Shown: piece by piece, positions 3,512 through 59,445 of the stretch | Layout of the letters: each line of letters opens with the position of its first letter | Position numbering within the stretch: the first letter of the stretch is position 1 | NCBI GenBank assembly: GCA_946811695.1 | Contig: OX328124.1 | Span: 30,329,648 to 30,393,647, forward strand | Length of the DNA: 64,000 nt | Direction: 5' to 3' | From: Gonocerus acuteangulatus | Lineage: Eukaryota > Arthropoda > Insecta > Hemiptera > Coreidae | Position numbers and translations under genes: made by a program | The notes under the pieces: generated by a model | Database searches by the model: none | Told to the model about the DNA's origin: nothing | The model's input: only the letters and a program-made list of their open reading frames with translations

Positions 3512-6500
3512 CAAGATTTGTATGGTAAAGAGCTTGGTCCTTTTTTAGGTTAATAGCTTTTAAGAAATGCTGTTCTGCATTCTCGTAAAGACCTTTTTTG
3601 CCAAGAGTGTTTGCTAAATTAAAATGTAATGATGAATCATCAGGTAGAATTTCAAGAGCCTCTGTTGCTAAACTCTGAGCTCTGTCTAATTCCCCTGAAA
3701 ATATCAAAATAAGTATTAGTCCTGGTTCTCAGTATTTTCACTAATTAGTCAGTGTTAAAAGTAAATCACCTAGTGAATCGAGCATAACTATCATATTATT
3801 CCAAGCTGTGCTATGAGTAGGTTTTAAGGTACTTGCTTGTTTCCAAGCAGCAAATGCTTCATTGTACAGCTTCTGAACCAGGAACTAGAAAAAAGAAAAT
3901 AAAAAATTCGAATCTTAAAGGTCTGATGAGGTACATATTTTTATAATATAAATACTTATTTTTGGAATACATATTCTCAGTACTAACACAGTTTATAAGT
4001 GATTGTAAACCTAAATATAAAAATCTAAATAAAAACCACTGTTAAATTCACTTAAACGTGACAGAAGGTTAATAAGAAAAAAACACTCACAATTACTTCT
4101 GCTCCAAATCCTTTATCCCTTTAATGCCATACATTTTTCATATCCTTCTGGCGCCTCTTCAAGAGCTCATAAATAAAAATATTTCTCGTCACATCAGTAA
4201 AAATTATAGACAGCTCTCAGGGCTATAACTTCAGTAATTAGACTCAGGCAGGACAGTGGAAGGTTTAACTATGTGGGCTGTCTACAATTTTTACTGATGT
4301 GACCAGAAATATTTCTTTCTATGCGCTTCTGAGGAGCCACCAGAGGGGTGTGAAAAATATAGAGCATTGAATAAAGGATTTGGAGCAGAAGTAATTGTGC
4401 GTTTTTATTATTTACCTTCTGCCAAATTTAAGTGAATTTAGTGGTATTAAAGGTCATAGGTATGTACGCCTCAGAAAGTGGTAGCAGCAAGGAGCTGTGC
4501 TCATCATTTATAGCCTAAAATCGAACCCTGTCTATAATCACTCCCTGTAGGCTCTACGAAAGATGTATATCCCCATGATCCTGATTGGGAAGGATTTCAA
4601 AACTCAGAAGGTCATGAGATCCGATGAGATGGCAAAAGCTCCTCGATGAAAGTCTGTACAGGACCCCAACAAGAGGCTGACTAAAGCTTAGATGGGTGGA
4701 CAGTATAAGGGAAGATTTGAGGACCCTGTTGGAACAATGCTGAACTGAAACATGAGTTTGGAACAAAAGGAAAACAGTATTAGACCGATTAAAATGTTGG
4801 ACGCTGCTTGAGTTGGACAGGACTCACTAACGCCATGTAAATTAAAATAAGGAGAGAGAGTTATACGTTTAACAAAACGTTTTATATATATGTTTAACAA
4901 AACTTTTGTACCAACAAAAAAATGTTAGTTATTGAAAATAAAAACCTTGCTTTTATACCTAAGCAGGAAGTAATGTATTAAAGTTTTTTGTTTTCATCCT
5001 GGAGCTTGTTTTGTAGCAATTTAATTTAATGAAGTGAGTTTTGGTAATAATACAAAATTATGTACAAAAGTAAAACTTACAAGATTTCCTAAGTTGTAAA
5101 AACAATCTGGATATTTCCTCCTATAAGCCAAGGCGTAGTTGTAACATTCTAAAGCTTCATCATAACGTTTCATAGTTGACAGAAGTATACCTAAATTCAT
5201 CCATGCTGCTGCAAAGTCCGGCCTGCAATAATATTGATCTCAATAGAAAGCAAACTATAGCCAACTCGATAATTAACTGTATTCTTTTTATGTTCAAATA
5301 ATTTTCATCGAATGATAGATATTGAGAAAACAAATTACTGCATCTGATAGTTCTTTTTGCAAAACTGTTGGTTAAGAAAAATGGGCAGTGGTTGACTATT
5401 CTTTATTCAGAATGAGTTATTTAGAGGGCAATACTGCATGATCAGTGACTTCATTAATCGTTCATGCATTCCTGTTTCCTAATCTGAAGAAAGGAGAGTA
5501 TATGAACAATTTATGAGAGAATTAGGAATAGTTTTTGCCACCAAACTACTCTTCCAAGTAAATATCATTTAATTACAATTTTTGAGCATTAGTTCGACCC
5601 TTAGATTTAAAATAGTTGGAATGTGTTTCATTATTTTCATTTCTTAGTGTTTGATTATAGTAATATGTGTTAATTAAATATTAACAAACGTACATATGGC
5701 TGTGCAAACTAAATGTTAAGAAATACCTGAGAGAAAGAGCTTTCCTTAACAATACCTCTGCTTCTAACATTTGCCCATCTTCTCTTAAAACATTGGCAAG
5801 GTTATTCATAGCTTGTTCATAGTCTGGGTACAACCTGCAATCAACTATACTTTAGAAAAGAAAAAAAACTTTGGGGCGAAAGTCGAATTTTATTTTTTAC
5901 CATATTCGTATATGGATTATTTATATACGAGGATATTATTTGGCCAACTTTTAAATAACATTTTTTTGTATAATTTTTCCTGTACTTTCGAGTGCTGTGG
6001 TGGAAAAAATCATTTTCAGAGCGGAAAATGCTCGAAAATCAATAAAACCACTTTTAGTTTGTATTTTATTCGACAGAACCTTAAATTTAAGCTGCTTAAT
6101 TCACCCAAACCTTAATTTGATTTCAAAGTAAAAAATTATTAAAAAATATTTACTTCAAAATTATCATAATTCATATATACTATTATGTCGGCCTACTGTA
6201 CGGAATCCGTTAGCACAGTCAGAACTATGGCGCAGAATACCAGCGCATCCGATGCAATTAGGTTTATACTTTTTCGAATTTGAGGTAATGTACATTGTGT
6301 TTTTTTTTTTTTTTTTTTGTTTTCAAAAATCAACAAATCTGGGCCATTAGCGCTGACATCCAGGGTGCAGCGAGGAATTTTCTCAACAAGCCCTGAGATG
6401 AGAAAATTCCTGCACCGGTGGGAATCGAACCCACCATCCCCCGCTTATGAATCTAAGGCGGTAGCCACTAGACCACGGGAGACCCCTACATTGTGTTATA

Positions 6501-9500
6501 TGTAATTAATATGAAACAAACTATTTCTAAGGGTTTTTGGAGTATGTTTAGGTGAACTAGACTGTTTACATTTAAGGTTATGTCTAGATAACTGCAAAAA
6601 AAGGTTTTATGGATTTTTGAGCATGTTCTGCTCCGAAAATGATTTTTTTCCACCTCAGCATTCGAATGTACGGGAAATAGTATACAAAAAAATACTATTT
6701 AAAAGTTGGCCAAATAATATCCTCGTATATAAATAATCCATTTAAAAATTAAAACTCGTCTGAAAATTCGAATTTGGCGTAAAATATTTTTAAAAAAATC
6801 ATGGTTATTAACATTTATAATTTACACCTCTATGATTTTTTTAGATTTTTTGGAGAAAAATTACGTCCATAAAAAAATAAAATAGATACAAGACGTTCTA
6901 ATTTATTGTGCCACTAATATGACCTCCAGAAGGCTAAAAATTTGCATGACTGAGTATTTTTAGGTTACCTTTCAAGTGGTCAAACTCCGAAATCGATATC
7001 GCTGGGGGAACTTTTCACCATCTTATCTTACTTTGTACCACCAGTATTTTTGTGACCAATGGTGTCATGTGATACTTTGATATTTCTCATCAGCACCTCC
7101 AGAGGATTGCGTCATGAGGTCAACCTTAGAAGCGGGTTTCCTACCAATGCAGGGAGGGAGGCAACATGGTAAAAGGCAATTATATCTGGATCCATGTTAC
7201 CCATCTAGTTCTTAAACCAATATTGATCTACGCCTAATTTAAGCTCTAGCTATAGCACATACTTTCTGTATAATGTTTTTCTATTTTTAGAATATTTTTG
7301 TATATCTATAAATTAGTATTAACTCTGTCCTACTTATTTTACAGCCCTGATGAAGGCTTAAATTTCAAGCCAAAACGTCGGCAAACAGTAAAACCCATTT
7401 TCACATGTAAAATTTAGTTTTATTAAGAAGAAACGACCGAAACCTGGCAATTTCTACCTTTGCATCGCCAACAGTCAACGATCTCCTCCCAATGAAAAAG
7501 TTAATAAATATTAATAGAAACCTTTATCCAGTAATTTAAAAAAAAAATATCAGACAAATATAATACAGGTTTTCATTCATTCTGAATTAAAACATTATAA
7601 AATGTTACATACATAATTGCTTGGCGGTAATGCTTTATGGCAAGAGAAGCATTCCCAGAAGTTTTTGCAAAGTTGTAATGTATTTTCGCATTTGAAGGAC
7701 ATACATTTAAACCTTTTGTAAACAGCTGTTTTTCCGTTCTCCAGTCAAGGGATCTTTGATGGCATCGCAGAGTGTTTATAAATAATAAGAAAAGTAAGAG
7801 TCCCCCTATTATCTGCAAAATAACAGTTTAAAATTACTCTGGAGATCTAAAAAAAAGAAAACGACTGTACCAAAACTAAGAATTGCTTACATTCTTTACT
7901 TTGAAATATGATATTAATTGTTCAATACCAATCACAATTAGCATACAGTAGCCAATTGATGGCAAGTACAAAATCCTTTCTGCTATAACAAAACCAACTC
8001 TAACAAACAAGTTGGAAGCAATTGAAAAAGGCACCACAATACAGAGAAGTGATAATAACACATTCCTGTAAAGAAGAAAAAAATATGTAATTCTTGTGGT
8101 ATTATAGACACAGAGATAATTATAAAATAAGCTTTAAGCTTCTTTGGAAAAGGCACCTTTTGACCCTATGGCATGCTCAACTAGGTGGAAATAAAAATAA
8201 TAACAAAACTTTTTGAAGCAGGGAAAATGTATTATTAATTTGTTATCCATGTCCAACACAGAAATTAATTGTTTAATTATATAATTAAAAAATGGTACCT
8301 ATTTTTTTTTAACGGCGCATCGACAAATCTGGGCCATTAGCGCAGACATCCAGGGTGCAGCCAGAAATTTTCTCAACGAGCCTTGAGATGAGAAAATTCC
8401 TGCCGCCGGTGGGGATCGAACCCACCATCTCCCGCTTATGAATCTAAAGAGCTAGCCACTAGACCACGGGAGACCCCGGTAGATGTTTAATGATAGTTCT
8501 TGGGAGATGGAGTCATGCTGATAATATATTTTCAAATAGTTTCCGTGAAATATAGTAGTTTGCCTGTTTAAATGGACATGGTCATAATTAAACAATTTCA
8601 ATGAAAACCAATGTTTTAGAAGTTATTTACGTAAAAACTCACATTTCATTTTGGTACCAAAATACTACTTGTTTCTGAGATTGTATTTGCCAAAGATTTA
8701 AATTTTCTTTTGAGTCTTATTCCGTGCACTGAATAATTATAAAATATTACATTTAAGGTAATTCCATTAAGATAATTGTTGTTGTTTAGCGGTTTATGTT
8801 TTGAGTTACAGTCAAAAAGTAATAAAAACTCATAAAAGAATTGCCCATGATAAGAGAGCTCAGCTAAGCAAGTAAATGCTAACATAGAAAAACAGGAATA
8901 TGAAAGAGGGCTACATTAATAAATATTCAAATGATTACCAATAACAAACAAATATTCTTGTTCTAATCATGTTTTAGAAGTAGAAAAAGTACATACATAA
9001 TGTAAAAATGCACCTTTGCTTGGATGTAGTTGGCCGCTTGAGACTTGTCACAATAAGCAAAGCAAAAATCAGCCAAAATATTATTATAAAAAAGAACCGC
9101 ATGTCTTTATGCAGGCTGTCCAGCTTAATAAGTGGGATACATCCCATTGACCAGTCAAAGCATAGCCACTCGGGGCAAATCAAAAGCCAAGCATTCAGAG
9201 CGTATATGTAATTATAGTTTAATACCTGCAATAAAGACAACAAACATGAGACCAAAGGATATCGTTCCAATGTCAAGGACGATAAATTAATATAAATTAA
9301 TTCATAAAACTTTAGGACTCTACACTATTCATTATTGTGATCCTTCGTAATGATTATACTTGCATGATCAAACCCCAATGTCGCCTTATTCAGAATTCAT
9401 GTAATCAATATTTTTGGAAGAGATAATCTACAGGTTAGTACCCTTTTATATCCTGGATAGAGACAATGCCTTTCCTTTTAGCGCGTTTCCTCCCTTCCTT

Positions 9501-14799: not shown

Positions 14800-15306
14800 A
14801 GTATTTGGTAATAATGAGTGAGAGCTGCCCAGAGCCCGATCTTCATGAAACTTCGTATACTTATTCATTTTGACCTAATTAAGAAGAAAAAAATCACTCT
14901 CGGTCAGGCCTAGAACAGTACTTATTAAGCACTAAAGTTGAGTGTTATACAGGTTAAAAGCTGGTGTAAACGACGTATTTGTAAACACGCGCATGCGCGG
15001 TAATGTCAAATTAGGAGAGCCAGAATTGACCTAACTCCGATTTTCCTAAAACTTCGTATACTTATTCAATTTAACCCAATTATGAATAAAAACGTGAAAA
15101 AATATCACAAACGACTAATTGTTTTCCCCATTGTTATGATACAGCTCGTAATGTTATGATAAAACTCGTTTATAGCCTGTACATCAGTCAACTTTAGTGC
15201 TTAAAAAATACTGTTCTAGGCCTGACCGCGAGTTACTTTTAATTTTATGTACAGATGGAATGGTTGGGATTCGGCTAAATAAACCTCAATATGATTTTGT
15301 TTTAAA

Positions 15307-15360
15307 AAAATCTATATTTCGGACGTTTCGGCTACTCATTGGTGGCCTTCGTCAGCTAAA
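15307..15360 (-). ncRNA. Hammerhead-ribozyme-like motif (minus-strand arm)
   Basis: On the minus strand CTGACGA (15355-15349) is followed by a stem II of the form GGCCAC / GTAGCC with one mismatch, then GAAACGTC at 15329-15322. It is the mirror copy of the motif at 15567-15612. Confidence 0.5.
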
Positions 15361-15566
15361 ATGACAAAAAAAGAAATTAATACGGAAACAAACAAGAAAA
15401 ATTTATAATTGTGATAGGTAACAGAACTATAGATACAGTTTAACTTATAACAGAACATATCGTCTTAAAATGTTCTGTTATAAGTTAAACTGTATCTATA
15501 GTTCTGTTACCTATCACAATTATAAATTTTTCTTGTTTGTTTCTGTATTAATTTCTTTTTTTGTCA

Positions 15567-15612
15567 TTTTAGCTGACGAAGGCTACCAATGAGTAGCCGA
15601 AACGTCCGAAAT
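15567..15612 (+). ncRNA. Hammerhead-ribozyme-like motif (plus-strand arm)
   Basis: CTGACGA is at 15573-15579. Stem II is GGCTAC (15581-15586) with GTAGCC (15593-15598), a perfect 6 bp. GAAA is at 15599-15602. The palindromic ACGT (15602-15605) is followed by C at 15606, giving triplet GTC. Stem I is weak: G-C next to the core, then ATTT/AAAT. The core is fully canonical; the flanking pairing is the weak point. Confidence 0.55.
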
Positions 15613-16235
15613 ATAGATTTTTTTAAAACAAAATCATATTGAGGTTTATTTAGCCGAATCCCAACCATTCCATCTGTACTTATCACCTCGACGGCTAACT
15701 ATCTAATCATCATGTTTTTAATTTTATCTTCTTAATTAGGTCAAAATGAGTAAGTATACGAAGTTTCATGTAGATCGGGCTCTGGGCAGCTCTCACTCAT
15801 TATTACCAGAGTATTTAATTCCCAGAATATTCAGGGCAAAAAAATGTATTATTTATAATATCAGTTGTAAATCACTGGCATTACTAAAAATGTCTTGTCC
15901 ATCACGAATTGTACAATCGCCAATGGTTATCCTCAGTATCTCTCAAATATTCAAAAGCACTAAGCTCCTTGGTAAGTTTATATGTAGGGGAAGGTTTCAA
16001 TCAGTTTCAGCAACTGTTTTGATAAAGCATTAATGTGATAAAACAGCTGTTCACTACTTAGCCACGTATATTGGGTGTATACCTGCAAGATTGCTGTGTG
16101 ACTTTTGAAATTATTCACATTTAGGAGTGTTGTTTATACCTCACTCGATTATAAACGCCTTTAATTAGTTATGAAATAAAATTGAAAACATTATGTGAAT
16201 GCTCTTTATACCTTGTTTAGCCTTAAAATAATAAA

Positions 16236-16629: not shown

Positions 16630-16667
<38 letters not shown>

Positions 16668-18050
16668 CAATTGTGAGCGGCTGGATATTCTTGTTCACAA
16701 GGAGCCATTATCCAGGAGACAAAACGCAAAACTAAGAATTGACCAATTGAAATATGATACTAGACATTTGCAGGTATAAGTTAGTTAATTTGTTGGTACA
16801 TATTATCTTTATTACATATTTTTTTCTGAGTATCTTCATCCAGTTTCATGATGGCAATTTGTTTTGAACACTAGTGCCCCATGTCTGTAATACATTTTAA
16901 TAAAACCATGCACAGTTTCTACGAGCCTTTTTAACTCCCTTATGAATGCTGGTGTGAGCTTAATGGATCATAGAAACTATTTGAGAGCTCTTGATAATGT
17001 AATCACTCCTAGGATGTACAAGCATCCTGACAAGGTTACACATCTGGAATGTCTTATATTAGGATATTATTTGTTCCAATTGACAATTTTCAAACATTCA
17101 ATTTCCGATTATCCCATATTTGAGCTCTTTTTGTGGAGTTTAGTAAATTATTAAATCTTATGTATGTATATATATATATAAAACAGTCATGTTTTCTGAA
17201 AAAATCTATGTTTTGCACATTTTGGCATTCTCTTTGGGAGCCTTCTTTAGCAATGAATGCCTAGGGGACGGAGGAAGACCAAAGATACCGGTTACGTTAC
17301 TATGACGAAAATAACCAGTATCTTTGTGTCACCTAACCACCAGTTGTAAATCACTAACTTGATTGGCTGACCGCCTGGAAAAACCATGTGCTGTTAGCTT
17401 TCTAAAAGGGAGGTAACTTTTCTAATGTATCAGCAGGTACATCATAAAACAAAACAAAAAAAAAATGAATTTAATAGCATATATTCTCATTAACATTTAA
17501 TTACAGGCAGCCTTACGAATGTACCAACATGAAATTTTTAAAAGAAGACAAGAAGAAAAAGAAAGAGAGGAACTTCTTAGCCGTAGATTTACTCGCAATT
17601 CTCTGTCTGAACAGGATACAACTATATTAATTGATCATTCCGTACAACACAACCTTTCACTCCAGGTAACAACTACTATGAAAACACACATTGTATTGTA
17701 AAAACCTTGATGGTAGCTCTAGGTAATCCAACAAATATATTCCTTCGATCGTATTCAACTCACATTTCACACCTGCTTATCATTTAAATCCCTTATAATT
17801 CCTCTTTTCTTCAATCTTATCATATTATTTTGAATGCTTAGAAAAGAAACCTGTAATAAACTCGTCTTTTGACCGCACCAGTTCTTCCAAAACTTCTAGC
17901 ACATTTTTCTCTGACTGAGTTGGTCTTATCTGTATCTCTTGAATCTGGTTTTTGTAGGAAATTTAATAGGATTTTGAATTGCCTACTTCACTTACCATGA
18001 TTTCTAAAGCATTTTCAAGTATTTAGGAAATTAAGAAAACTCCAAAACTG

Positions 18051-22153: not shown

Positions 22154-23203
22154 TCTACTATATATTTGTCAAATACCACTCACTCACTCACTCACTCATC
22201 TATCAACGCCCAGCCCAAACCGCTCGACAGAAAATTTTGAAATTTTGCATGGACACTCCCTATATAACGTAGGCACTCGCTAAGAAAGGATTTTTTGATA
22301 TTCGAATTTTTAAGCATTTTTAGGGGGGTTTAAAGTTTGAGTTGGTTAGAGAAGGCAAGCCTAGGCAGCCTGCGTTGCTAGGACGATAAAGAACAGCTGT
22401 TACCTTACATTATCTATCTCATAGTATTAATTTTAATTGAGGTTAATTTCAACTATGATGGCAGACCTTGAATTACTAGAAATAAACTGTGATTTTGTCA
22501 CTGTTAGAGTTTACGCCCTGGTGATGGCCCATCCGAGGTAATTATATCCAGAACCACTTGACAAAAAATTTGAAATTTTGCACGGACAATCATTTTAGAA
22601 TGTAAACACTCGCTAAGAAAGGGTTTTTTGATATTCAAATGTTTAAGTACTTTTAGGGGGGCATGAATTATTAAGAAGTTCCTCATCGGCTCAAAAATGG
22701 TTCGATTTTGATAACATTTGGTACAAAAATCTTTTTTCTCATTTATAATATCAAGTTCATTAACCAGTTGAATCCGTTTACTGGAACGTGATTTTTGGAG
22801 CGAAATTTGTGCGAGAGATTCCTTAATGTAGGAAAACGAATGAAACCCTTTTTTAAGCGAGTTCTGTAGCCATTTACAAGAGAAATTGATAGAAATACCT
22901 TTCGAAACTCATTTTCTGTTTGGGTATTCAGAAACGAAGTATATGGGAAAAAAATGTATGAATGGTGATACAAAGTTTTCGGATCTCAGTATATTTTCTA
23001 AAAGATCTCGAAAACGGTTGGGAACTCGTAGTAAGTGGAAGGCGGCTATTCGAAAGGTTACTAAATTCTCTACAAATAAGATTCTGTTGTAATGTTCGGT
23101 GGGTCGATGTCAATCGAAGAGATAAGTGCTTAATACTTCAAATTTGTTAGTTTTATGCTTTTCACTGTGTATTTGTCTATTTACTTAACTTTTTAAGTGG
23201 TTG

Positions 23204-34953: not shown

Positions 34954-35246
34954 TATGTCACTATGATAATGATATACCTACATATTAATTTATGAATGAC
35001 CAATTAATCAAAATTAATAATAATTAATTATAATAGGTTGAACCTATTTTTGAACCTAATAAAACATTTTTATCACCTAAAAAAACTATAATGGATTATG
35101 GCTATTGTAAAACCTAATTGCATGCTTATTTTATCCTAAAAATCCGGTCCCTACCGGAATAACTTACTTCAACTATTATGTTGAGGCACGCCTGTGTTTT
35201 TAAAACTTGTCCTATATATATTGTAATTAATACGTGTTCTGTTTTG

Positions 35247-35297
35247 TTTATAGCTCTGATGAAGGATTGAAATTCAAACCGAAACATCAGCAATAAA
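35247..35297 (+). ncRNA. Hammerhead-ribozyme-like motif
   Basis: CTGATGA is at 35256-35262. Stem II is GGATTG / CAAACC with one mismatch. GAAA is at 35281-35284, and the triplet ATC ends at 35288. Stem I is GCT (35253-35255) with AGC (35289-35291), then a 1x1 mismatch, then TTTAT (35247-35251) with ATAAA (35293-35297). Stem III ACAT is a decayed palindrome. The flanking complementarity is good evidence for a real structured RNA origin. Confidence 0.6.
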
Positions 35298-35809
35298 AAC
35301 CATTTATATTTTTTCTTCATTCAATAGTAATTATTTTTGAGAAATAGTGGGTTTTTAAATAAAAAAACATTTTTTCATTTGATCACACGGTGACTAATAA
35401 TTGGCTTCCTTCCCTCTTTAGGCCTATTGAGAGTAAAATGTAAAGCACCTATGCACGGCGGATATCCGATAGAGTCCGGCAGCGAGGTCAATGGTTACCC
35501 GAATAGGCCATAGAGCTGCTTGCAAACCCTCTCGGGCATTTCATTCAGCAGAGCAATAGTGCAGGGCACTCGTCCCTCGTTGAAGCAGGAGTATGCAATT
35601 AATATATTTCTTAGTTTTGATGAACTAAGGGATTCTACTACAAAATCGATGAAGATTGTTTTTCGTAAATCGCTCTCGTTGTAGACTGCTGGTCCAACAT
35701 TGTACAAAATCAAGGAATTTGTCGGAATCTCTGCGAAATTATGATAAAGCAGTTGATGTAGTTGAGGAATTCCTAAAAATGGCGCAACTATATCACTTCC
35801 TCTAAATCG
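35298..35809. other. Unassigned sequence with an open frame on the minus strand
   Basis: 35495-35713 on the minus strand is open for 72 codons (segments DLRKTIFIDFVVESLSSSKL and NILIAYSCFNEGRVPC). It has protein-like composition and higher GC than its surroundings. It may be a transposon fragment; I do not recognise it. Confidence 0.25.
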
Positions 35810-37349: not shown

Positions 37350-37660
37350 GTTGGGATTCGGCTCAAAGATAAAAACGTCGGACGCTAAGAGAAATCTATA
37401 TTCGGAACGTTTCGACTACTCTTTGGTAGCCTTCGTCAGCTAGATTAAAAAAAAAATTGTAGAATTACAAAGAATAATCATTAAACCAAATATAACACTA
37501 AATTAAATCCAAAAATAAATATAGATTATAAAAACAGTTTTTTTTTTTTTTACAAACACAACATTATAAAAAGTCAAGTGAACAAAAAGTTAGATTTCTG
37601 AGGCTTCTCCTCTTAGTCGAATCTAGCCATTCCTTGACTTCTTATCACCTCAATGGCTAA
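37350..37660 (-). mobile_element. Hammerhead-bearing element, diverged copy
   Basis: Same layout as 15249 and 59240. One end carries GGGATTCGGCT and the other a diverged inverted version followed by CTTATCACCTCAATGGCTAA, which is also found beside the 15249 element. The interior differs from the other copies. Confidence 0.6.
37393..37446 (-). ncRNA. Hammerhead-ribozyme-like motif
   Basis: On the minus strand CTGACGA is at 37439-37433. Stem II is GGCTAC / GTAGTC (one G-T pair). GAAA is at 37413-37410, the palindrome ACGT at 37410-37407, and the triplet GTT follows. Stem I pairs AATCTA (37446-37441) with TAGATT (37398-37393), a perfect 6 bp beyond an internal loop. Confidence 0.6.
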
Positions 37661-39461: not shown

Positions 39462-40726
39462 CTAGCTGTTACCCGGCGTGCCATGCTACACCTACTTTCT
39501 GCATCTAGAAAAGCCTAAATAAATTAGAAACCAAATAAGTATTATTAAAATCTAATAACACTAATCTGTAACTGTTTCGAACCCGTGACCTCCCAACTGT
39601 GCGTCCTAGACGACTTTGACATCTAAGTCTAACGGTGTGGATTTAAAAAAAAAACATAAAGGCAGCAGCTGGTAGACGTTTTTGACCAGGCCTACGGCAA
39701 TCCCCTGATCAAGACCAACCTGTGTGCCCAGTTGATCAAAATTTGTGAATCGATGGGGGATTGTATAAAGAACAAACATACAGACAGACAGCTGGTAGAG
39801 GTTTTTGACCTAGCCTACGGCACTCTCCAGATTAGGATCTACCTATGTACCGAGTTTGGTCAAAATCGGTCGAACGGTTTGGATTTTTATAGGGAATAAA
39901 CATACACACAGACAGCTGGTAGATGTTTTTGACCTGGCCTACCCCACTCTCCAGATTCAGATCTGCCTGTGTACCAAGTTTAGTCAAAATCGGTCGAACG
40001 GTGTGGATTTGTATAAAGGACAAACACACAGACAGACAGCTGGTAGACGTTTTTGACTTAGCCTACGACACTCCCCACATTTTGATCTACATGTGTACCA
40101 AGTTTAGTCGAAATCGGACGAACGGTGTGGATTTGTATAAGGGACACAGACAGACAGCTGGTAGATTTTTTTTTACCTAGCCTGTTATCAAAATCGAATC
40201 ATTTTTGAGCGGATGAGGAACTACTTAATAATTCAAACCCCTCTAAAAGTTCTTAAACATTTGAATATCAAAAAAACCTTTCTTAGAGAGTGCTTACACT
40301 CTAAACGTATTTGTAATTGGTTCAGGATGTTATTACTTCGGATGGGCCATTATTACCAGGGCGTAAACTCTATGAGGGACAAATTCACATTTTATTTCTA
40401 GTAATTCAAGGACTGCCATCATAGTTAAAATTAACCTCAATTAAAAATAATACTATGAAATAGATAATGTAAGGTAACAGCTGTTCTGTTATCGTCCTAG
40501 CAACGCTTGCTGCCTAGGCTTGGCTGCTCTAGCCAACTAAAACTTTAAACCCCCCTAAAAATACTTAAAAATTCGAATATCAAAAAATCCTTTCTTAGTG
40601 AGTGCCTACGTTATATAGGGAGTGTCCATGCAAAATTTCAAAATTTTCTGTAGCGGTTTGGGGTGGGCGATGATAGGTCAGTGAGTGAGTCAGTGTGTGA
40701 GTGGTATTTGACAAATATATAGTAGA
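39462..40726 (-). mobile_element. Helitron-like element, tandem member 2
   Basis: On the minus strand it starts TCTACTATATATTTG at 40726. It ends with CTAG at 39462-39465, preceded by a different terminal segment (GGCACGCCGGGTAACAG). It therefore has a family H head but a different tail. The inside carries the minisatellite at 39666-40180. Confidence 0.75.
39666..40180. repeat. 123/124-bp minisatellite inside a Helitron
   Basis: CAGCTGGTAGA recurs at 39666, 39789, 39913, 40037 and 40155. Each unit contains 'gtacc.agtt..gtcaaaatcgg' and 'cgaacggtgtggat'. The same wording is common in tails of insect Helitron- and RTE-type elements. It is open across units in several frames, none credible as protein. 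Confidence 0.9.
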
Positions 40727-41856
40727 CTAGCTGAATACCCGTACTGAATACCGTCACGGCAGATAAGTAGTTATTTTATTGCGTTAAATAATGTTTCATT
40801 AAAATTAGGCTACTATACAATTCTGTGCAGTTTATTACAGCACGGTTCCCGCCATACTATATTTTATTCAATGGGCGTTAAAATTTAAAAGTTTATGTTT
40901 CCAAGAAGTCATATGGTAACACCCAATATATTTACGAGTATTACCAAGGTTATAGGCGGGGAGGCTGTGCAAGGGTTCCAGATATTATTACCTCGCCTGG
41001 AAAACCTAAGGATATGCCATTCATCACGGTTTGACCGGGACTGTCCCGGTATTTTGCAATTGTTTCGGTGTCCCGCCCAGTTTTATCAATGTCCCGGAAA
41101 AGGCTGTAAGATGTAAAAAGTAATGAATTCATGTTTATAAGAATCTTTTTTAAATCGGTTACTTTTCTACAATTAACATTTTTACTACTGCTCACAGTGT
41201 CAAACTACCTGCACAGCGCTGCCAGCTGCTAGACACTACTATTTGGCTCAGAGATTGTTTTAAGAAAATCAAGTAGCAAAAAAAGTTCCGTTCTTATTTT
41301 TAAGGTTTGGGTAGACTAACAGTTTAGGATTCCCCCTTCCCGTTAGTTGCTAGGCTTAAAACTCACCAACCATTTTGCTTATAATTTGTACTCTTTTTAT
41401 CCCCCCCCCCCCCCTGGTATGCCCATCCCATATTAATGTGTCTCGGTTTAACTCTCCAAAAATATGGCAAGCCTATCTGACGGGGACAGGCAGAAAAGAA
41501 ACGCAATTAAAACTCTATGAGGGACAGTTAATTTCTAGTAATTCAAGGTCTGCCATCATAGTGGAAATTAACCTCAATTAGAAATAAAACTATGAGATAG
41601 ATAATGTAAGGTAACAGCTGTTCTTTATCGTCCTAGCAACGCAGTCTGCCTAGGCTTGCCTACTCTAACCAACTCAAACTTTAAACCCCCCTAAAAATGC
41701 TTAAAAATTCGAATATCAAAAAATCCTTTCTTAGCGAGTGCCTACGTTATATAGGGAGTGTCCATGCAAAATTTCAAAATTTTCTGCCGAGCGGTTTGGG
41801 CTGGGCGTTGATAGATGAGTGAGTGAGTGAGTGGTATTTGACAAATATATAGTAGA
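40727..41856 (-). mobile_element. Helitron family H, tandem member 3
   Basis: On the minus strand it runs from TCTACTATATATTTGTCAAA at 41856 to CTAG at 40727-40730. At about 41020-41100 it contains a foreign block (GACCGGGACTGTCCCGG), which looks like the end of another DNA transposon, and a C run at 41401. Confidence 0.8.
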
Positions 41857-43648: not shown

Positions 43649-44938
43649 CGTGGGGTGATCAAAAAGTTCCAGGACTGATTTTTTATTAATTTATTTAAAA
43701 AATCTACAGGCTATTGGACGTCGTCCCCTTCAAAGTACTCTCCTTGGGAAGCTATACATTTTTCCCAACGATGTTTCCACTGCGTGAAGGACTTTGAGAA
43801 ATCATCTTGTGAAATGGTGTTTAGCTGCTCCAGCGATTTTTCTTGAATGTCATCTACGGACTCAAATCTCTTTCCCTTCATGGGTCTCTTGAGTTTTGGA
43901 AACAAGAAAAAGTCTGCAGGGGCAAGGTCAGGTGAATATGGAGGCTGGGGAATGATCGCGAATGAGCAGTGCGGAATGAACAGGCGCATTGTCATGATGC
44001 AGGAACCACTCACCGCTCCGCCACAACTCTGGTCTCTTCCTCCTTATTGCCTCGCGCAAATTTCTCAGGGTTTGAAGATAACGAAAGCGGTTAATGGTCT
44101 CACCTCGTGGAAGAAATTCATGGTAAACAACACCCTTCCAGTCAAAAAAAACAGTAAGCATGACCTTGACGTTTGATTTGACCTGACGTGCTTTTTTGGG
44201 GGTTGGGGAGGATTTTGTCTTCCAATGTGATGACTGGACCTTCGTTTCGACGTCGTAGCCATAAACCCACGTTTCATCTCCAGTAATGACTTGTTTTAAC
44301 AAGTTTTCATTGTCATTTGCCATTTCAAGAAGTTCCTGACAAACTTGAACTCTGTGTTGTTTCTGCTCCTCAGTCAACAGTCTCGGAACAAACTTTGCAG
44401 CCACCCTTCTTATCTGCAAATTTTCTGTTAAAATTTGTTGACACGAACCAAATGAAATGTTCAATTCTTCAGCCATATCACGAATGGTTAGTCGACGATT
44501 AGAACGCACGAGACTGTTCAATCTTGCAACATGATCGTCATCAGTCGAAGTTGATGGGCGCCCTGAACGAGAATCATCTTCACACGATGTCCTTGAACCT
44601 TTTGTACCACTCATGACACCTTGACTGACTCAGACATTCATCACCGAAAGCCACTTGCAACATTTGAAAAGTTTCAGTAAACGTTTTACCCAACTTCACA
44701 CAAAACTTTACGCAAACGCGTTGCTCTTCCTTTTCATTCATTTCAAGAAATCGCCGAACACAAAAAACTTTTTTTACGAACACAGCAGTAACTTTACAAT
44801 GAAGAAGGTTATCAACAATCTGAATAAACAGCTGAGTTCAGGAAGAGTCACGATAAACAATGCTGCCAACCGCACTGCTCTATGACACTCCATTGCCGCG
44901 CAATCTAAACAGTCCTGCAACTTTTTGATCACCCCACG
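43649..44938 (-). mobile_element. mariner transposon, full length, inactive
   Basis: The element is 1290 bp between TA duplications (43647-43648 and 44939-44940). The inverted ends CGTGGGGTGATCAAAAAGTT run about 29 bp with one internal mismatch. The length is that of a typical mariner. The near-identical ends suggest recent insertion even though the transposase is broken. Confidence 0.95.
43711..44741 (-). pseudogene. mariner transposase, two frame breaks
   Basis: Three overlapping frames together cover a usual mariner transposase (about 345 aa). The first, from ATG at 44741, has the helix-turn-helix (KLGKTFTETFQMLQVAFGDE and CHEWYKRFKD). The second, down to about 43950, has RSGRPSTSTDD, a second HTH (SLVRSNRRLTIRDMAEELNI), the first catalytic Asp in VITGDETWVYGYD, and the second in FLHHDNAPVHSALL. 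The third has YSPDLAPADFFLFPKLK with the third Asp, and ends EGDDVQ. The frame shifts at about 44595, and again at about 43970 with loss of several codons after HSALL. All three catalytic aspartates are still encoded, but never in one frame. Confidence 0.93.
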
Positions 44939-44940
44939 TA

Positions 44941-47640: not shown

Positions 47641-47731
47641 GCATCAACTACTTTCCTTCTTAAAGTTTAAGGACTGTGTCCAATACTACACTTCACGTTA
47701 AGTCATACATGTTTTAATAAATTCTGCTGTG

Positions 47732-47956: not shown

Positions 47957-48300
47957 GAATTGACAAAAGAAACACTGACTCTAAAGTTAGTATTATTATT
48001 TTTTTTTTTCAATTTTGAGTGAGAATATTAAAGGAATTGTTAATAATGTTGAATTAACCAGATTGTAGATTAATTCAAAAATCTATGTTTCAAATTGTGT
48101 CATTCATCCATATGCGATTGCATCTCAGCCTTGTCTTTAGAATGAATTGAAACATTTTTCACACGGTTTTTATTCATTCAAGCTAAAGATACACATTTTG
48201 ATTAGGCTTGGAATAGAGCAAATATTACACGAAAAAATATTTTCTTCACAGACAAGAGAAGTCTTGTACTTTTCTTATACTTTTTTAGATATTACAAAAA

Positions 48301-51300
48301 CGGTTTATGTTAAAGGTACCATTCCAGTGTCCAATAGATATACCCTTGTTCAATGTTTAATTGTGTGTGTTCCCACTTTGAAATGCTGCTCTCTCTCTCT
48401 TGTCCATAGCCCTGAAGATGGCTTGAAATTCAAGCAAACGGTTTATGTTAAAAGTACCATTCCAGTGTCCAATAGATATACGCTTGTTCAATGTTTAATT
48501 GTGTGTGTTCCCACTTTGAAATGCTTTTCTCTCTCTCTTGTCCATAGCCCTGAAGATGGCTTGAAATTCAAGCGGAAACGGTTTATGTTAAAGGTACCAT
48601 TCCAATGTCCAATAGATATACCCTTGTTCAATGTTTACTAGTGAGTGTTCTCACTTTGAAATGCTGCTCTCTATCTCTTGTCCTTAGCCCTGAAGATGGC
48701 TTGAAATTCAAGCGGAAACGGTTTATGTTAAAAGTACCATTCCAGTGTCCAATAGATATACCCTTGTTCAATGTTTACTAGTGAGTGTTCTCACTTTGAA
48801 ATGCTGCTCTCTATCTCTTGTCCTTAGCCCTGAAGATGGCTTGAAATTCAAGCAAACGGTTTATGTTAAAAGTACCATTCCAGTGTCCAATAGATATACC
48901 CTTGTTCAATGTTTAATTGTGTGTGTTCCCACTTTGAAATGCTGCTCTCTCTCTCTTGTCCATAGCCCTGAAGATGGCTTGAAATTCAAGCAAACGGTTT
49001 ATGTTAAAAGTACCATTCCAGTGTCCAATAGATATACCCTTGTTCAATGTTTAATTGTGTGTGTTCCCACTTTGAAATGCTGTTCTCTCTCTCTTGTCCA
49101 TAGCCCTGAAGATGGCTTGAAATTCAAGCAAACGGTTTATGTTAAAAGTACCATTCCAGTGTCCAATAGATATACCCTTGTTCAATGTTTAATTGTGTGT
49201 GTTCCCACTTTGAAATGCTGCTCTCTCTCTCTTGTCCATAGCCCTGAAGATGGCTTGAAATTCAAGCAAACGGTTTATGTTAAAAGTACCATTCCAATGT
49301 CCAATAGATATACCCTTGTTCAATGTTTACTAGTGTGTGTTCTCACTTTGAAATGCTGCTCTCTCTCTCTTGTCCATAGCCCTGAAGATGGCTTGAAATT
49401 CAAGCAAACGGTTTATGTTAAAAGTACCATTCCAGTGTCCAATAGATATACCCTTGTTCAATGTTTAATTGTGTGTGTTCCCACTTTGAAATGCTGTTCT
49501 CTCTCTCTTGTCCATAGCCCTGAAGATGGCTTGAAATTCAAGCAAACGGTTTATGTTAAAAGTACCATTCCAGTGTCCAATAGATATACCCTTGTTCAAT
49601 GTTTAATTGTGTGTGTTCCCACTTTGAAATGCTGCTCTCTCTCTCTTGTCCATAGCCCTGAAGATGGCTTGAAATTCAAGCAAACGGTTTATGTTAAAAG
49701 TACCATTCCAATGTCCAATAGATATACCCTTGTTCAATGTTTAATTGTGTGTGTTCCCACTTTGAAATGCTGCTCTCTCTCTCTTGTCCATAGCCCTGAA
49801 GATGGCTTGAAATTCAAGCAAACGGTTTATGTTAAAAGTACCATTCCAATGTCCAATAGATATACCCTTGTTCAATGTTTAATTGTGTGTGTTCCCACTT
49901 TGAAATGCTGCTCTCTCTCTCTTGTCCATAGCCCTGAAGATGGCTTGAAATTCAAGCAAACGGTTTATGTTAAAAGTACCATTCCAGTGTCCAATAGATA
50001 TACCCTTGTTCAATGTTTAATTGTGTGTGTTCCCACTTTGAAATGCTGCTCTCTCTCTCTTGTCCATAGCCCTGAAGATGGCTTGAAATTTAAGCAAACG
50101 GTTTATGTTAAAAGTACCATTCCAATGTCCAATAGATATACCCTTGTTCAATGTTTAATTGTGTGTGTTCCCACTTTGAAATGCTGCTCTCTCTCTCTTG
50201 TCCATAGCCCTGAAGATGGCTTGAAATTCAAGCAAACGGTTTATGTTAAAAGTACCATTCCAATGTCCAATAGATATACCCTTGTTCAATGTTTAATTGT
50301 GTGTGTTCCCACTTTGAAATGCTGTTCTCTCTCTCTTGTCCATAGCCATGAAGATGGCTTGAAATTCAAGCAAACGGTTTATGTTAAAGGTACCATTCCA
50401 GTGTCCAATAGATATACCCTTGTTCAATGTTTACTAGTGAGTGTTCTCACTTTGAAATGATGTTCTCTATCTCTTGTCCTTAGCCCTGAAGATGGCTTGA
50501 AATTCAAGCGGAAACGGTTTATGTTAAAAGTACCATTCCAATGTTCAATAGATATACCCTTGTTCAATGTTTAATTGTGTGTGTTCCCACTTTGAAATGC
50601 TGTTCTCTCTCTCTTGTCCATAGCCATGAAGATGGCTTGAAATTCAAGCGGAAACGGTTTATGTTAAAGGTACCATTCCAATGTCCAATAGATATACCCT
50701 TGTTCAATGTTTACTAGTGAGTGTTCTCACTTTGAAATGATGTTCTCTCTCTCTTGTCCATAGCCCTGAAGATGGCTTGAAATTCAAGCGGAAACGGTTT
50801 ATGTTAAAAGTACCATTCCAATGTCCAATAGATATACCCTTGTTCAATGTTTACTAGTGTGTGTTCTCACTTTGAAATGCTGCTCTCTCTCTCTTGTCCA
50901 TAGCCCTGAAGATGGCTTGAAATTCAAGCAAACGGTTTATGTTAAAGGTACCATTCCAATGTCCAATAGATATAACCTTGTTCAATGTTTAATTGTGTGT
51001 GTTCCCACTTTGAAATGCTGCTCTCTCTCTCTTGTCCATAGCCCTGAAGATGGCTTGAAATTCAAGCAAACGGTTTATGTTAAAAGTACCATTCCAATGT
51101 CCAATAGATATACCCTTGTTCAATGTTTAATTGTGTGTGTTCTCACTTTGAAATGCTGTTCTCTATCTCTTGTCCTTAGCCCTGAAGATGGCTTGAAATT
51201 CAAGCAAACGGTTTATGTTAAAAGTACCATTCCAATGTCCAATAGATATACCCTTGTTCAATGTTTAATTGTGTGTGTTCTCACTTTGAAATGCTGTTCT

Positions 51301-52186
51301 CTATCTCTTGTCCTTAGCCCTGAAGATGGCTTGAAATTCAAGCGGAAACGGTTTATGTTAAAAGTACCATTCCAATGTCCAATAGATATACCCTTGTTCA
51401 ATGTTTACTAGTGAGTGTTCTCACTTTGAAATGCTGCTCTCTCTCTCTTGTCCATAGCCCTGAAGATGGCTTGAAATTCAAGCAAACGGTTTATGTTAAA
51501 AGTACCATTCCAATGTCCAATAGATATACCCTTGTTCAATGTTTAATTGTGTGTGTTCCCACTTTGAAATGCTGTTCTCTCTCTCTTGTCCATAGCCATG
51601 AAGATGGCTTGAAATTCAAGCGGAAACGGTTTATGTTAAAAGTACCATTCCAATGTCCAATAGATATACCCTTGTTCAATGTTTACTAGTGAGTGTTCTC
51701 ACTTTGAAATGATGTTCTCTATCTCTTGTCCTTAGCCCTGAAGATGGCTTGAAATTCAAGCGGAAACGGTTTATGTTAAAAGTACCATTCCAATGTCCAA
51801 TAGATATACCCTTGTTCAATGGTTACTAGTGTGTGTTCTCACTTTGAAATGCTGCTCTCTCTCTCTTGTCCATAGCCGTGAAGATGGCTTGAAATTCAAG
51901 CGGAAACGGTTTATGTTAAAAGTACCATTCCAATGTCCAATAGATATACCCTTGTTCAATGGTTACTAGTGTGTGTTCCCACTTTGAAATGATGTTCTCT
52001 ATCTCTTGTCCTTAGCCCTGAAGATGGCTTGAAATTCAAGCGGAAACGGTTTATGTTAAAAGTACCATTCCAATGTCCAATAGATATACCCTTGTTCAAT
52101 GTTTAATTGTGTGTGTTCCCACTTTGAAATGATGTTCTCTATCTCTTGTCCATAGCCCTGAAGATGGCTTGAAATTCAAGCGGAAA
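48301..52186 (+). repeat. 28-copy, 138/140-bp satellite with a hammerhead-like core
   Basis: ACGGTTTATGTTAAA recurs at 48301, 48439, 48579, 48719, 48857 and so on, up to 52047. Spacing is 138 bp where the junction reads AAGCAAACGG and 140 bp where it reads AAGCGGAAACGG. Every unit has CTGAAGATGGCTTGAAATTC followed by AAGC: CTGANGA with hairpin GCTTG/CAAGC. The 140-bp form keeps GAAA; the 138-bp form loses G12. CATAGCC before the core can pair with GGTTTATG after it (stem I with one bulge), but the GTC/NUH triplet expected between GAAAC and GG is absent. Units differ by few substitutions, so the array is young or homogenised. 138-bp units are most common at 48857-50375; 140-bp units cluster toward the right end. 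Confidence 0.95.
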
Positions 52187-52964
52187 TTCTGGCAAATAAA
52201 TATTACTAATTTTATTTATAAAATGTAGATTTATTTAACAAATGACCGAACCTCGATCATTTGCATCTTTTCAATACCAACGGTCGACTACCTCTTACCA
52301 ATATTACACAAATTTTGACAAGATCTCCGTCTGGGAAATTTCTGTTAAATTTTTCATATGGATTGAATTGAACAACCAGTTGTGGAATCACTTTTTCTAC
52401 CTTTTTGAAGGTATATTTTATTGCGTTTCCTCCCTCCCTCCATACTGAGAAAAATCATAATAGTTCACCCAATATCACTGAATATATACTATCCATGAAT
52501 GGACTATCTGTATCAGAATGACCCAACCAAAGCGGAAGACCACTTGTTTGAATGATCTAACCTCCGTATTATCTTATCTAAAGAATGAACATATTTTTTA
52601 TGAGGCTTTGTAGCCTTCAACGTTTTAATCTTCGAATTAATAATGTTGGTTATTCAAATAGAGATAGATCAACTTCCACAAATGAATGTTAAGATAAAAA
52701 CACTTTTATTTAATTTTAGAGTCTTTTCGCTAGGCTGTTTCGGAATTTTATGGATATGTTTTGATCATTTACATTGAATCGAAATTATTGATAATATTTC
52801 ATAAATTTTAATATCCTAAATAATTACAAGATATTGTAGATATTTAAACAATTATGCAATAATAAATACCAAATCATTCTTACAATGTCTGTATGGTTTA
52901 AAATGAAGACAGCTGATGTGGAGGTTTGGTCCAGGTTATAAATTATAAATTTATTTATTTAAAT
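52187..52964. other. No gene seen
   Basis: AT-rich flank of the satellite with a 'gcgtttcctccctccctc' block also seen at about 9480 and 30600, a possible small repeat. Confidence 0.3.
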
Positions 52965-55640: not shown

Positions 55641-58600
55641 TAAGGCTACTTTTATACTATTTGTCCTGTTAGTAAAGTGTTTCCTTGCTAGATAAATTTT
55701 ATGGTGGAATAATAAGGTAATGTAAATTGTATTAAGAAAGTTTTCTTAAGTATCATTTTCTATTCTTCCTAATTTAAACTCATAGAATGATATTTTTGAG
55801 TTACGTTATGAGAGTATATAAAATCCATTAAGATTTCTTAGCAGTTTCTAGTTGCTTAGCTGTACCACTCTTAAGTAATTTAATATATAGGCAGGAATTT
55901 TGTGGCGTTCCTTCGTGCTGTATTTTTTTTTTTTTCTTTCTTGAGATCATTTAAGTATTTTACGCTATGAGCTGGTTATTATTGTAAATTATTTGACCTA
56001 ATAAGTATTTTAATTTATTTGAATAATTCATCGCCTGTTTGAATTGATTATAGATTTGTAAATTTATATTTGCTTGAGCTGCGAACAAAGTTGCGTTAAG
56101 GGCAAAAAAAGTTTATATTGCGATTTTGTAAGTTGTATTCTTTGTGCAGGTAGGTAAGAAAGTATTAATACATTTTTATGTACTTAGGTAATGCTTTGCT
56201 ACATATTCTTAAAAGTAAGAAGTTATTCTTTGTTTTTAAGTTAAAAAAGGTTTTTTTTTTTTTTTTCAATTTATACTTAATGAGGTTAGTTCATCATATT
56301 CTATTCAAATAAAAATTATTAAAAAAATATTTAATGGTAAACCCTCGAGAATAATTGTTAGCCAATTTAATATGCTTTGTTAATTTAATATTTTTTAGAA
56401 TCTTTTCATTAGTATAGATTTCTTGTGTATTATAATTTTATAACAAATTTGGAATTTTCAGCACAATGTCTGTAATATCGCACACATTTTTTGGGGGGGG
56501 GGGTTCTAAGTGAGATACCTAATTTCTGTTTTTTTTTATTCACTGAATGTCGTTCATGTGTAGATAATTTATCTTATTAGGCATTATCCAGATTATAGTG
56601 CGTACATTTTCGTTTGGTCCGGGTTTATGTGCGCAGTTTTTCTTCTTTTATTGTATTAGTGACACGAATGGACCTTTCAATTATTTTAATTACGGAGATG
56701 GTATTTTTCTTGTAATTTAACAAAGAAGAATTGGGAGAGACGGTCTCAGCAATTGTCCTTGGTCGAAGTGAATCATACAGGTTTTCCATTATGGTTATTT
56801 CTTAAGAAACACTTTTTTGGTCTAGATAGCTCATTTTCTTATTCAAGTCTTACTTAATGGAAATTATAAATATAATCACTTTGTGCTGTAAAATAGAAAG
56901 GACTATTTCTTTTTGTTCCAAATATTGACTTTGCACATCACATTAGGAGTATTTGTTAATTTTATATTTATTTATAAATATTTTCACATCAATAATAATT
57001 ACTGCCTCCGGGTATTACCAGGATAGTCATTGTCGGGGCTCGGCACACATGGAGGAATTGATTCGGAAACATATACAATACATTTGTGTTAATATGTGGA
57101 AAAATTCCTTAATATTAATGTAGTACGAGTTCATTCTTTTTGTACCGAAAAGCTAATATATCTTGCTTTAGCTTATGCCTGGCGCTTAATTTATTTCTTA
57201 AGTACAGATGCTTAGATAGCTTTCTATGTTCATAGCAGACCTAAGATAATTCAAGGTTTTCGTTTTCCTATGGGCTTCAGTTATTTTTGTAGACATGTAT
57301 TAGTATCTCTAGATGAGGAACGGCGAAATATCCCCCCCTGTATTTTACGTTATTTTTCTTCTCAGTTTTAATGGGCGTAGAAAACTAATGTTGGGGATCT
57401 GATGCATTTCAAATTCCTGGGTTGGCCAACTATAAATTTTATATTTTGTAATATTGCATTCACATTCTGTATATTTCCTGATTTTATGTGAAACAAAATT
57501 ATTATGAAGGCCAAATTTTATCGTACTTTCATAATTTAAGTAATTAGTTTTCTTATTGAAATGAGATGGAATTTGATTATTTTATTTCCTGTTATATTAA
57601 ATAGATACACAGAATTCTCATGGGCAAGATCTTATTGTTTAATAATAATTATATTGCATTACTTATTTGAAAATGTTCCGCATCTTCACCCTTCCTTGTT
57701 GATACAGTTGGCTTCTAACCTAACCACAGCTTTACCTCTTAACAGAAATCATTTTAGAATTAATTGTTGTAAAGGACGAGTCAATATCTTAATATAACAT
57801 CATTATTTTGTTTAGAATAACATTCCAATTATGTTTGCACGTTGTTCTGGGTTTTTGGCGCTTTAGTGATCTGTCAGTGGGCCTAACCCAGCTCTGTTTG
57901 TGAACTAGCGTCCCCAAGAGTTTCCACTATCGAAGTCTAATATAGTAAGCACTAAGCCACCACTAGTCGCTGTTATTTCATGGTTACTTCGTTGTCCGAT
58001 TATTTTAACAAAACTAAGACGTTTTTACTATTGCCTATGGTTTCAAATTTCATTTATTGCGTTCCGGTAAATCGCATACTTTACTGCTTTAACACCAAGG
58101 ACGCCATTACGTTCACTTGGCGCGGAAAAACGCGCTCAAAATTGGAACACTGGGTAATAATATGACAGTGAACGACTTTAACCAAATATAACCAATTATT
58201 TAGCTTTTGATATATTATTTCAAACATTAAAATACTATTTTTACAATATTCTACTTATTCGCATAAAGTTACTAATTTAAATCCATTTAACTGTTTATCT
58301 GTTGTTTGTGCATTTTAGGTAAATAGCTAGTTTCTGCTTGCGGTTTTATTTCACCAGGATAAGAAATATTGATTTCTAGTGAAAGAAAATGAGATAAAGT
58401 TTAGAAATAGGAATTTTTCTTAAGTAACAGTTATTAACAGTTTTGAAATAGTTAATTTTATATATGAGTTCCATATTAGGCAATCACAAGGCTCATGAAT
58501 TGTCAACGTTTTGCCTCGTTGGGAAAACCAAACAAAGATTTAAAAGTGCGGGGTTCCCCATGAGCCAAAATCCTTTTGTTTTTTTTTTAAGTGCAGTGGT

Positions 58601-58815
58601 CTTCAGGTAGTTTTCGCAGGACCACTTAGTTTATTGGCAGTAATCTTAACAATAACTGACATGTACATATTCATAAAGGGCGTTCCAGGTATTTCGTTTT
58701 GGACTATTGTAATCCATTTTGCAAATTTTCTTTACGGAAAAATATTCAAATAACATAAGACTATGTGTCCGCTAGGATTTTTACGGTATTATTTCTGAAC
58801 TATATTACTTTTAAG
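55641..58815. other. AT-rich, no gene seen
   Basis: No coding frame with protein-like composition. It may be a long first intron of the gene suspected at 54.7 kb. Confidence 0.3.
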
Positions 58816-59068
58816 CATGGGCGTATATTAGGGGGGCTGCAGCCCCCCCCCCCCAAAAAAAATTTTGATATGATGCTAAAAATGTGTAATAAAACCCTTA
58901 AAAATGAATAAAATAAGATTACTTGGTTCATAAAAAATATTTTACTTTAGGTGTAATAGCGTTTTAGTTGCCTAAAACTATTCCAAGTTCTGAATCTTTA
59001 GTATTCCATAACCCGGAAATGGTAGCAGCCCCCCCCCCCCACGAAATTGTTTCCTATATACGCCCTTG
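58816..59068. mobile_element. G/C-tract MITE, inverted copy, 8-bp TSD
   Basis: The ends are CATGGGCGTATAT / ATATACGCCCTTG. A perfect 8-bp duplication, CTTTTAAG, lies at 58808-58815 and 59069-59076. Its interior is in the opposite direction to the 1274 copy. Confidence 0.85.
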
Positions 59069-59239
59069 CTTTTAAGTGTCTTTCTTTATACGATTTTTCA
59101 GCCGCCAACACATGGTCAAATACGATGGCGTTTTATATCCATCGTCTCAAAGACTCCAAAATATATGATTTTACTAATTACTATTAAAATCAATCATTGT
59201 ACCTATTTACTTTTTCATTCTAAGAATTTAAGACGATAT

Positions 59240-59445
59240 GTTCTTTTATAAGTTAATTGTATCTATAGCTCTGTTACCTATCACAATCATAATTTTTTTT
59301 TGGTTTTGTATTAATTTCTTTTTTTTGTCATTTTATCTGACGAAGGCTACCAATGAGTAGCCGAAACGTTCGAAATATAGATTTTTTAAAACAAAATCAT
59401 ATTGAGGTTTATTTAGCCGAATCCCAACCATTCCATCTTTACTTA
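59240..59445 (+). mobile_element. Hammerhead-bearing element, single arm
   Basis: Nearly identical to the right arm of the 15249-15679 palindrome, from 'gttctttt.taagtta' to GCCGAATCCCAACCATTCCA. It shows that the repeating unit is a single arm of about 205 bp and that the palindrome is two units inverted. Confidence 0.8.
59331..59376 (+). ncRNA. Hammerhead-ribozyme-like motif
   Basis: CTGACGA is at 59337-59343, with stem II GGCTAC / GTAGCC perfect. GAAA is at 59363-59366, then ACGT and T, giving triplet GTT. Stem I is weak, as in the 15567 copy. Confidence 0.5.

Follow-up and report, generated by a model that had tools for sequence, protein, structure and literature searches.

Minimal type I hammerhead ribozymes of Penelope-like elements (PLEs) have reportedly been described by Cervera and De la Pena in 2014 and by Lunse, Weinberg and Breaker in 2017. 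We examined a candidate family of such motifs in a 64,000-nucleotide stretch of the genome of Gonocerus acuteangulatus (contig OX328124.1, positions 30,329,648 to 30,393,647, of assembly GCA_946811695.1), hereafter called the window. The passages of the published accounts that deal with PLE hammerheads place them in the pseudo-long terminal repeats (pLTRs) of the elements, and describe a near-absent helix III, a possible dimeric form and many dispersed copies (PMC6155905, PMC7761336). The motifs from G. acuteangulatus are similar in all four respects, and because minimal dimeric type I hammerheads of PLEs have already been published, the core of our interpretation is supported but not new. The present motifs may differ in carrying an extra A or T after nucleotide A9, and they differ in overlapping a 3′ splice site and a poly(A) signal, an arrangement unmentioned in the same passages. 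The role of PLE hammerheads in vivo is there called a mystery (PMC7761336), and the pertinent part of another account leaves open whether the template for PLE copying is sense or antisense RNA (PMC3846280).

Two other systems invite comparison, as far as the relevant sections of their descriptions go. PAc, a Poseidon element of Anolis carolinensis, likewise carries a hammerhead at the junction between pLTR and open reading frame (ORF), occurs in tandem copies, and has a tail that corresponds to reverse transcriptase (RT) start sites and resembles the tail found here (PMC11167929). In PAc, however, the ORF begins at stem II and cutting depends on protein, whereas the present motifs are known from sequence alone. 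Penelope families of Adineta vaga share head-to-head inverted pLTRs, a 31-bp tail, short target-site duplications (TSDs) and, in some families, introns (PMC3846280). Their TSDs measure 8-10 bp, compared to 12-13 bp in the insertions we examined, and intron retention is stressed and an antisense template weighed for those families. The exact loss of introns seen here points instead to spliced RNA of sense orientation as the template.

Taken as a whole, our data are very probably best explained by six PLE pLTR fragments in the window, each bearing a minimal hammerhead motif, from lineages in whose living elements the motif stands at the start of an exon and sense RNA is recopied. We observed family membership, covarying stems, the anatomy of four insertions, and copies both with and without a GT-AG intron. 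A sequence-only reading of the window had flagged nine CTGANGA-type strings as hammerheads of several diverged PLE lineages, live or decayed. All nine strings are present at the positions it gave, and its interpretation stands in kind for six of them. Specifically, a covariance model (R2) built from an alignment (A2) of 13 genomic loci and zero window sequences gave 46.2-56.8 bits (E values of 6.7e-16 to 3e-12) for exactly the sites at 15573 (+), 15355 (-), 59337 (+), 7347 (+), 37439 (-) and 35256 (+). The top score outside motif-related window sequence was 12.1 bits (E value of 1.5), with noise from there down. R2 also recovered sites that the earlier reading lacked, namely 52158 (+) at 33.2 bits, 17250 (-) at 18.7 bits and 25 decayed units of a tandem array at 13.8-23.7 bits. 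An earlier build (R1), which included four window copies, split the sites in the same way and matched 26 array units.

The PLE-type core, CUGANGA followed by GAA, A..U and H, is invariant or nearly so in an alignment of 16 sequences (A1), although our search pattern itself demanded most of these columns. Stem III is ACGT in five of the window copies and ACAT, an imperfect palindrome, in the copy at 35256. The stem is thus cut down to a short palindrome as in other minimal PLE hammerheads, and a dimer is predicted. A strict scan of the window that allowed no extra base returned zero sites, and it was this empty result that brought the extra base to light: an A directly follows CTGANGA in all six true copies, a feature absent from the earlier description. 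Among 48 distinct motif strings the base between A9 and stem II is A in 28, T in 19, C in one and G in none, so that stem II never abuts A9 as it does in canonical type I hammerheads; because the pattern required this base, strings without it were not sampled. When one extra base was allowed, the scan returned six sites compared to a simulated mean of 0.73 and a maximum of 2 (40 runs), but it missed 35256 and 15355 (-) and included 38476.

Compensatory change in stems I and II had been put forward as a test of the ribozyme reading, and both stems show it. On A1 the two stems together are paired in 80.0% of cells compared to 20.0-38.9% when the pairing is slid along the alignment, with a covariation score of 0.437 compared to 0.091 or less; the percentage paired, the number of cells changed on both sides and the covariation score were each reached by none of 500 shuffles. 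Stem I alone scores 0.510, compared to 0.125 or less when slid and a comparison value of 0.191. These figures lean towards the hammerhead, since the structure was picked from the known ribozyme and the sequences are related. Within stem II, pairs 1 and 2 carry no information because the search pattern fixed them, and pair 3 is A-T in 20 of the 48 strings, C-G in 19, T-A in two, G-C in one, G-T in one and unpaired in five. Shuffling the 3′ halves within a length class reached the observed pairing at pair 3 in 16 of 2000 trials and did not lower pairs 4-6, so that some of the stem II signal lies within shuffles. When the halves were shuffled over all strings, pairs 3-6 were reached in 0, 0, 10 and 0 of 2000 trials, and the signal at pairs 4-6 is therefore one between families of differing length.

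The motif is abundant in the assembly, which comprises 1.106 Gb in 135 contigs. The pattern CTGANGANGGN{6,20}CCGAAACGT has 10,710 plus 10,560, or 21,270, exact matches on the two strands, compared to no genome matches for the same pattern read backwards. A variant that bars C at the third stem position and G as its partner has 868 and 883 matches, again with none for its control. The listed strings sort into several families, here labelled A to G, and most of the genomic copies are probably dead insertions.

Four features place these elements among the PLEs: ORFs encoding RT that lie between paired motifs, pLTRs in inverted orientation, duplicated target sites, and tails. At the locus L032, an ORF of 587 codons that carries RVT_1 lies between inverted motifs, one of which is about 0.5 kb downstream. 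Among the best 120 of its 249 protein hits are relatives from Coccinella, Lutzomyia, Haematobia, ants and others, most of them unnamed, which carry RT (PF00078) and PF26215 domains and, in some cases, GIY-YIG (PF01541). The telomerase-like RT with a C-terminal GIY-YIG domain that defines PLEs is therefore present, the GIY-YIG domain through these relatives rather than by a call on L032 itself. Inverted stretches in the L032 insertion measure 168 nt (100% identity) and 953 nt (99.6% identity). The insertion also has a 13-bp duplication, and one of its sides bears a tail of about 35 nt; L036 is likewise flanked by a target duplication. Among the 100 places listed, 22 of the 32 motif pairs within 5 kb of each other are head-to-head (-,+).

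The same anatomy of inverted pLTRs, tail and short TSD, found in L032 and L036, recurs in the window at 15237-15727. Copies of the duplication TTTTAATTTTAT at 15237-15248 and 15716-15727 enclose an inverted family A pLTR fragment (15249-15458, minus strand, with its motif at 15322-15355) and a plus-strand family A pLTR fragment with a tail of about 35 nt (15470-15715), whose motif at 15573-15606 is preceded by the intron end TTTTAG. The arms extend over 213 nt with three differences. At 59174-59444 (+) lies a solo family A pLTR, which of the PLE insertion marks has only the target duplication (ATATATGATTTTA, at 59161-59173 and 59445-59457, judged by eye); its motif occupies 59337-59370 and its splice acceptor is mutated to TTTTAT. 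Four queries for a PLE RT found no match in the window.

Some peculiarities of the PLE loci were recorded along the way. The PLE at L032 sits inside a satellite array whose repeats are about 120 bp long (1378-1969 and 5498-8001 of that locus). On the minus strand of L045, an ORF at 4953 contains a PLE-like endonuclease frame with an in-frame minisatellite, in which the 16-residue unit GETSQNCKECMDKCYI is repeated many times. By eye, L039 has two units (175-750 and 1171-1629) wherein the 5′ half of the ribozyme motif is fused in frame to the PLE endonuclease region.

Copies of the same family differ by the presence of an intron. In intron-containing family A copies such as L042, the exon end GGCATTTCCATTG is followed by the intron start GTATGTAG, and the intron closes with TTTTAG immediately ahead of CTGACGAAGG. 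In L035 and L017 the exon runs straight into CTGACGAAGG, and alignment of these two with L042 and L034 opens a GT-AG gap of 277-283 nt, flanked by 23-26 of 30 identities on the left and 30 of 30 on the right. An abrupt 5′ change in L017 and L035 had been considered the mark of a recombinant family, an idea we rejected once the matching exon and GT-AG intron were found. Among 35 distinct copies of families A and E, 30 have the intron end, two have a decayed end, and three (L017, L035 and L049, all of one subfamily) lack the intron. The decayed family A-lineage copy in the window at 17203-17262 (-) also seems, by eye, to be without it, with the exon GGCATTCATTG running directly into the motif at 17250.

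In families D and F the intron extends from ACATG/GTGAGT to TATTGTAG/ATTGC. L075 and its sister copy L038 are distinguished by precisely such a GT-AG stretch, 121 nt long, with flanking identities of 38/40 and 40/40. The gap of 271 nt between L032 and L077 is less clean, with identities of 31/40 and 33/40, and given these junction mismatches L077 is only probably an intronless copy of lineage B. The 55 distinct D/F-like copies comprise 25 without the intron, 20 that contain it (the 5′ site being visible in 10 of these) and 10 that fit neither group; this census was made by text-pattern sorting of part of the listed places, and some of the 55 strings come from other lineages. Four D/F stem II subfamilies hold both forms. 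Automatic gap placement was unclean for L034 (-), 17250 (-), L076 and the comparison of L035 with L036, and the first three were called intronless by a shared exon or pattern together with inspection by eye.

The best explanation for the loss of a GT-AG intron in two or more lineages is that spliced sense RNA was reverse-transcribed; such RNA thus probably served as a template, with predicted spliced junctions that join CATTG to CTGACG and ACATG to ATTGCCTGA. The intron-containing copies indicate that unspliced RNA, or some other route, also serves. For D and F we dropped the notion that splicing invariably wrecks stem I: four or five of the five stem I pairs are kept in 22 of the 25 intronless copies, compared to 13 of the 20 that contain the intron.

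An acceptor-like AG lies 0-5 nt ahead of the ribozyme motif in six of the seven named families, family G having none. It falls at C3 in families A and E; 2 nt before C3 in B, C, L008, 35256 and the tandem array (10 of 18 rows); and 5 nt before C3 in intron-containing D and F copies. For C and E, which have no intronless partner, the acceptors are a reading of the sequence only. Of 27 distinct rows that comprise the motif and its flanks, 13 have an exact AATAAA that begins within 15 nt downstream of the cut site. The five 15-nt bins that follow contain 1, 0, 1, 2 and 0 such starts, and four bins on the upstream side of the motif contain 3, 0, 1 and 0. The offset of AATAAA from the cut site ranges from 2 to 10 and differs by family, and in families A and E its place is taken by AATATA or AATACA, which are weaker poly(A) signal variants. 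We found no description of ribozyme and splice-site overlap, of acceptor, ribozyme and poly(A) signal in close succession, or of spliced retrocopies, in PLEs among the titles, abstract openings and passages of the literature surveyed. This order of acceptor, ribozyme and poly(A) signal, together with the spliced retrocopies, is the less expected part of our findings, since the motif itself is of a known kind.

In a living element, the motif would run from stem I through CUGANGA, the extra A or U, stem II, GAA and the ACGU near-palindrome of stem III to the cut site at Y17, and would open an exon straight after the 3′ splice site and ahead of the poly(A) signal. The PLE RT/GIY-YIG protein would copy sense transcripts, spliced or unspliced, back into DNA; the resulting insertions would have pLTRs in head-to-head inversion and short target duplications, with or without a tail. 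In an RNA that holds pLTR, ORF and pLTR in tandem, two motifs may pair via ACGU and cut, perhaps helped by the PLE protein, and thereby trim the RNA ends. A more speculative extension, which we regard as improbable, is that the ribozyme acts together with the splice acceptor and the poly(A) signal as a single compact switch. With the acceptor at C3 in families A and E or 2 nt before it in B and C, the intron would supply all or part of the 5′ strand of stem I, and splicing would disarm or weaken the ribozyme; spliced mRNA would be protected, and unspliced RNA could cut itself and lose its cap and tail. Families D and F, with the acceptor 5 nt upstream, would have escaped because stem I survives splicing.

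Several observations weigh against the hammerhead interpretation and the recopying of spliced RNA. A canonical core lacks the additional base that stands here between A9 and stem II, and the Rfam model Hammerhead_1 (RF00163) gives only 11.3 bits for 15567-15612 compared to its gathering score of 34. Two of the five covariation measures lie within shuffles (pairs changed on both sides, reached by 263 of 500; further pair types, by 197 of 500), and the minimum-energy fold of the monomer is a different hairpin that ties up the core. In the relevant passages on the Anolis PLE, the ribozyme did not cut without protein, was dispensable for insertion in vitro, and left no RNA-seq ends at the cut site (PMC11167929). 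Finally, old intronless subfamilies or recombination, rather than repeated splicing, could account for part of the intronless copies. Regarding Rfam, it lists no hammerhead for 7320-7410, which holds the 7347 copy, nor anywhere in the window at E≤10, and a search of the insect's own genome was silent, as were searches of control genomes; its models are nearly blind to this form of the motif. The covariance search proposed by the sequence-only reading is therefore clear with the purpose-built model R2 and fails with Rfam.

Of the alternatives, the one that survives best, although we consider it rather unlikely, is that the motif is no longer catalytic and is retained as a signal for splicing and polyadenylation or for RT priming, which would be compatible with everything observed above. 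The closely flanking acceptor-like AG and AATAAA, the base after A9, and the protein dependence of cutting described in the pertinent part of the report on a related PLE (PMC11167929) all fit such a signal, but the compensation in stems I and II and the conserved core suit catalysis better than a linear element. We think it very unlikely that the conserved unit is instead one long hairpin, with CUGANG paired to CGUYGG around stem II, that acts as a DNA or RNA signal and not as a ribozyme. Folded at minimum energy, the 15573, 7347 and 35256 copies adopt this hairpin (z scores of -1.8 to -2.1), whose outer helix is 76.8% paired compared to 3.1-47.4% when slid, a surplus that arises because most of its letters belong to the invariant core. 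Its covariation is 0.139 compared to a shuffle mean of 0.131, and was reached by 114 of 500 shuffles; pair 17-44 is unpaired in 9 of 16 sequences; and N7 varies freely, as expected of hammerheads. Because stems I and II covary, as stem I alone does, and the preferred hairpin does not, the hammerhead reading is superior.

It is less probable still that these motifs belong to metazoan retrozymes, which are non-autonomous tandem repeats with type I hammerheads. As presented in the sections of the account consulted, non-LTR retrozymes share the type I hammerhead and tandem layout, but their units measure about 170-400 nt, their hammerheads are mostly canonical, and they form circular RNA and lack PLE pLTRs (PMC7229834). 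The one retrozyme-like layout that we found is an array overlooked by the earlier reading (48298-52256, plus strand), in which units of 138 or 140 bp carry a decayed motif behind a polypyrimidine-AG. The dispersed copies, in contrast, bear PLE pLTR ends, tails and RT ORFs. Two Gs including G12 have been lost in 16 of the 24 strictly matched array units, whose motifs are, to judge by their letters, probably inactive, and the last unit, at 52158, continues into a B-like pLTR end. The array thus looks like a satellite that grew out of a PLE end.

Chance occurrence of CTGANGA, a hairpin and GAAA in DNA of 66% AT is the least credible explanation for the six sites, as it is ruled out by their scores of 46-57 bits with an independent model and by the 21,270 genomic matches against none in the control. 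Chance does fit 4329, 9993 and 38476, which look like random strings: neither R1 nor R2 matched them at E≤10 across the window, and their folding is at shuffle level (z scores of -0.42, 0.30 and 0.46). One of them, 38476, had been among the two sequences offered for bench tests. None of the three, nor 35256, has a BLAST match among the 48 genomic loci compared, so that locus matching cannot by itself separate true from chance sites, and the covariance model is the evidence for 35256.

The remaining window copies are fragmentary. A truncated family A fragment at 37386-37458 (-) has its motif at 37406-37439. A family B pLTR end at 7301-7508 (+), with a tail-like end by eye, carries its motif at 7347-7379; since A replaces G12, this copy is predicted to be probably inactive. 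The divergent copy at 35244-35301 (+), with its motif from 35256, has AATAAA 3 nt past the cut site. The window also contains a mariner-type transposase reading frame of 233 codons at 43928-44629 (-) (Pfam Transposase_1, E value of 2e-19), an inverted pair of 310-nt repeats that are 97% alike and 19 kb apart (22181-22490 and 41524-41833), further related copies near 36.0, 39.2 and 40.4 kb, and, at 39666-40156, a tandem array whose repeats are about 124 bp long.

The copies that have lost a GT-AG intron, which come from two or more lineages, speak for spliced sense RNA as one of the templates for PLE copying. Furthermore, the layout of splice site, ribozyme and poly(A) signal, of which a single genome provides thousands of natural copies, offers a concrete and testable way to connect RNA processing with self-cleavage.

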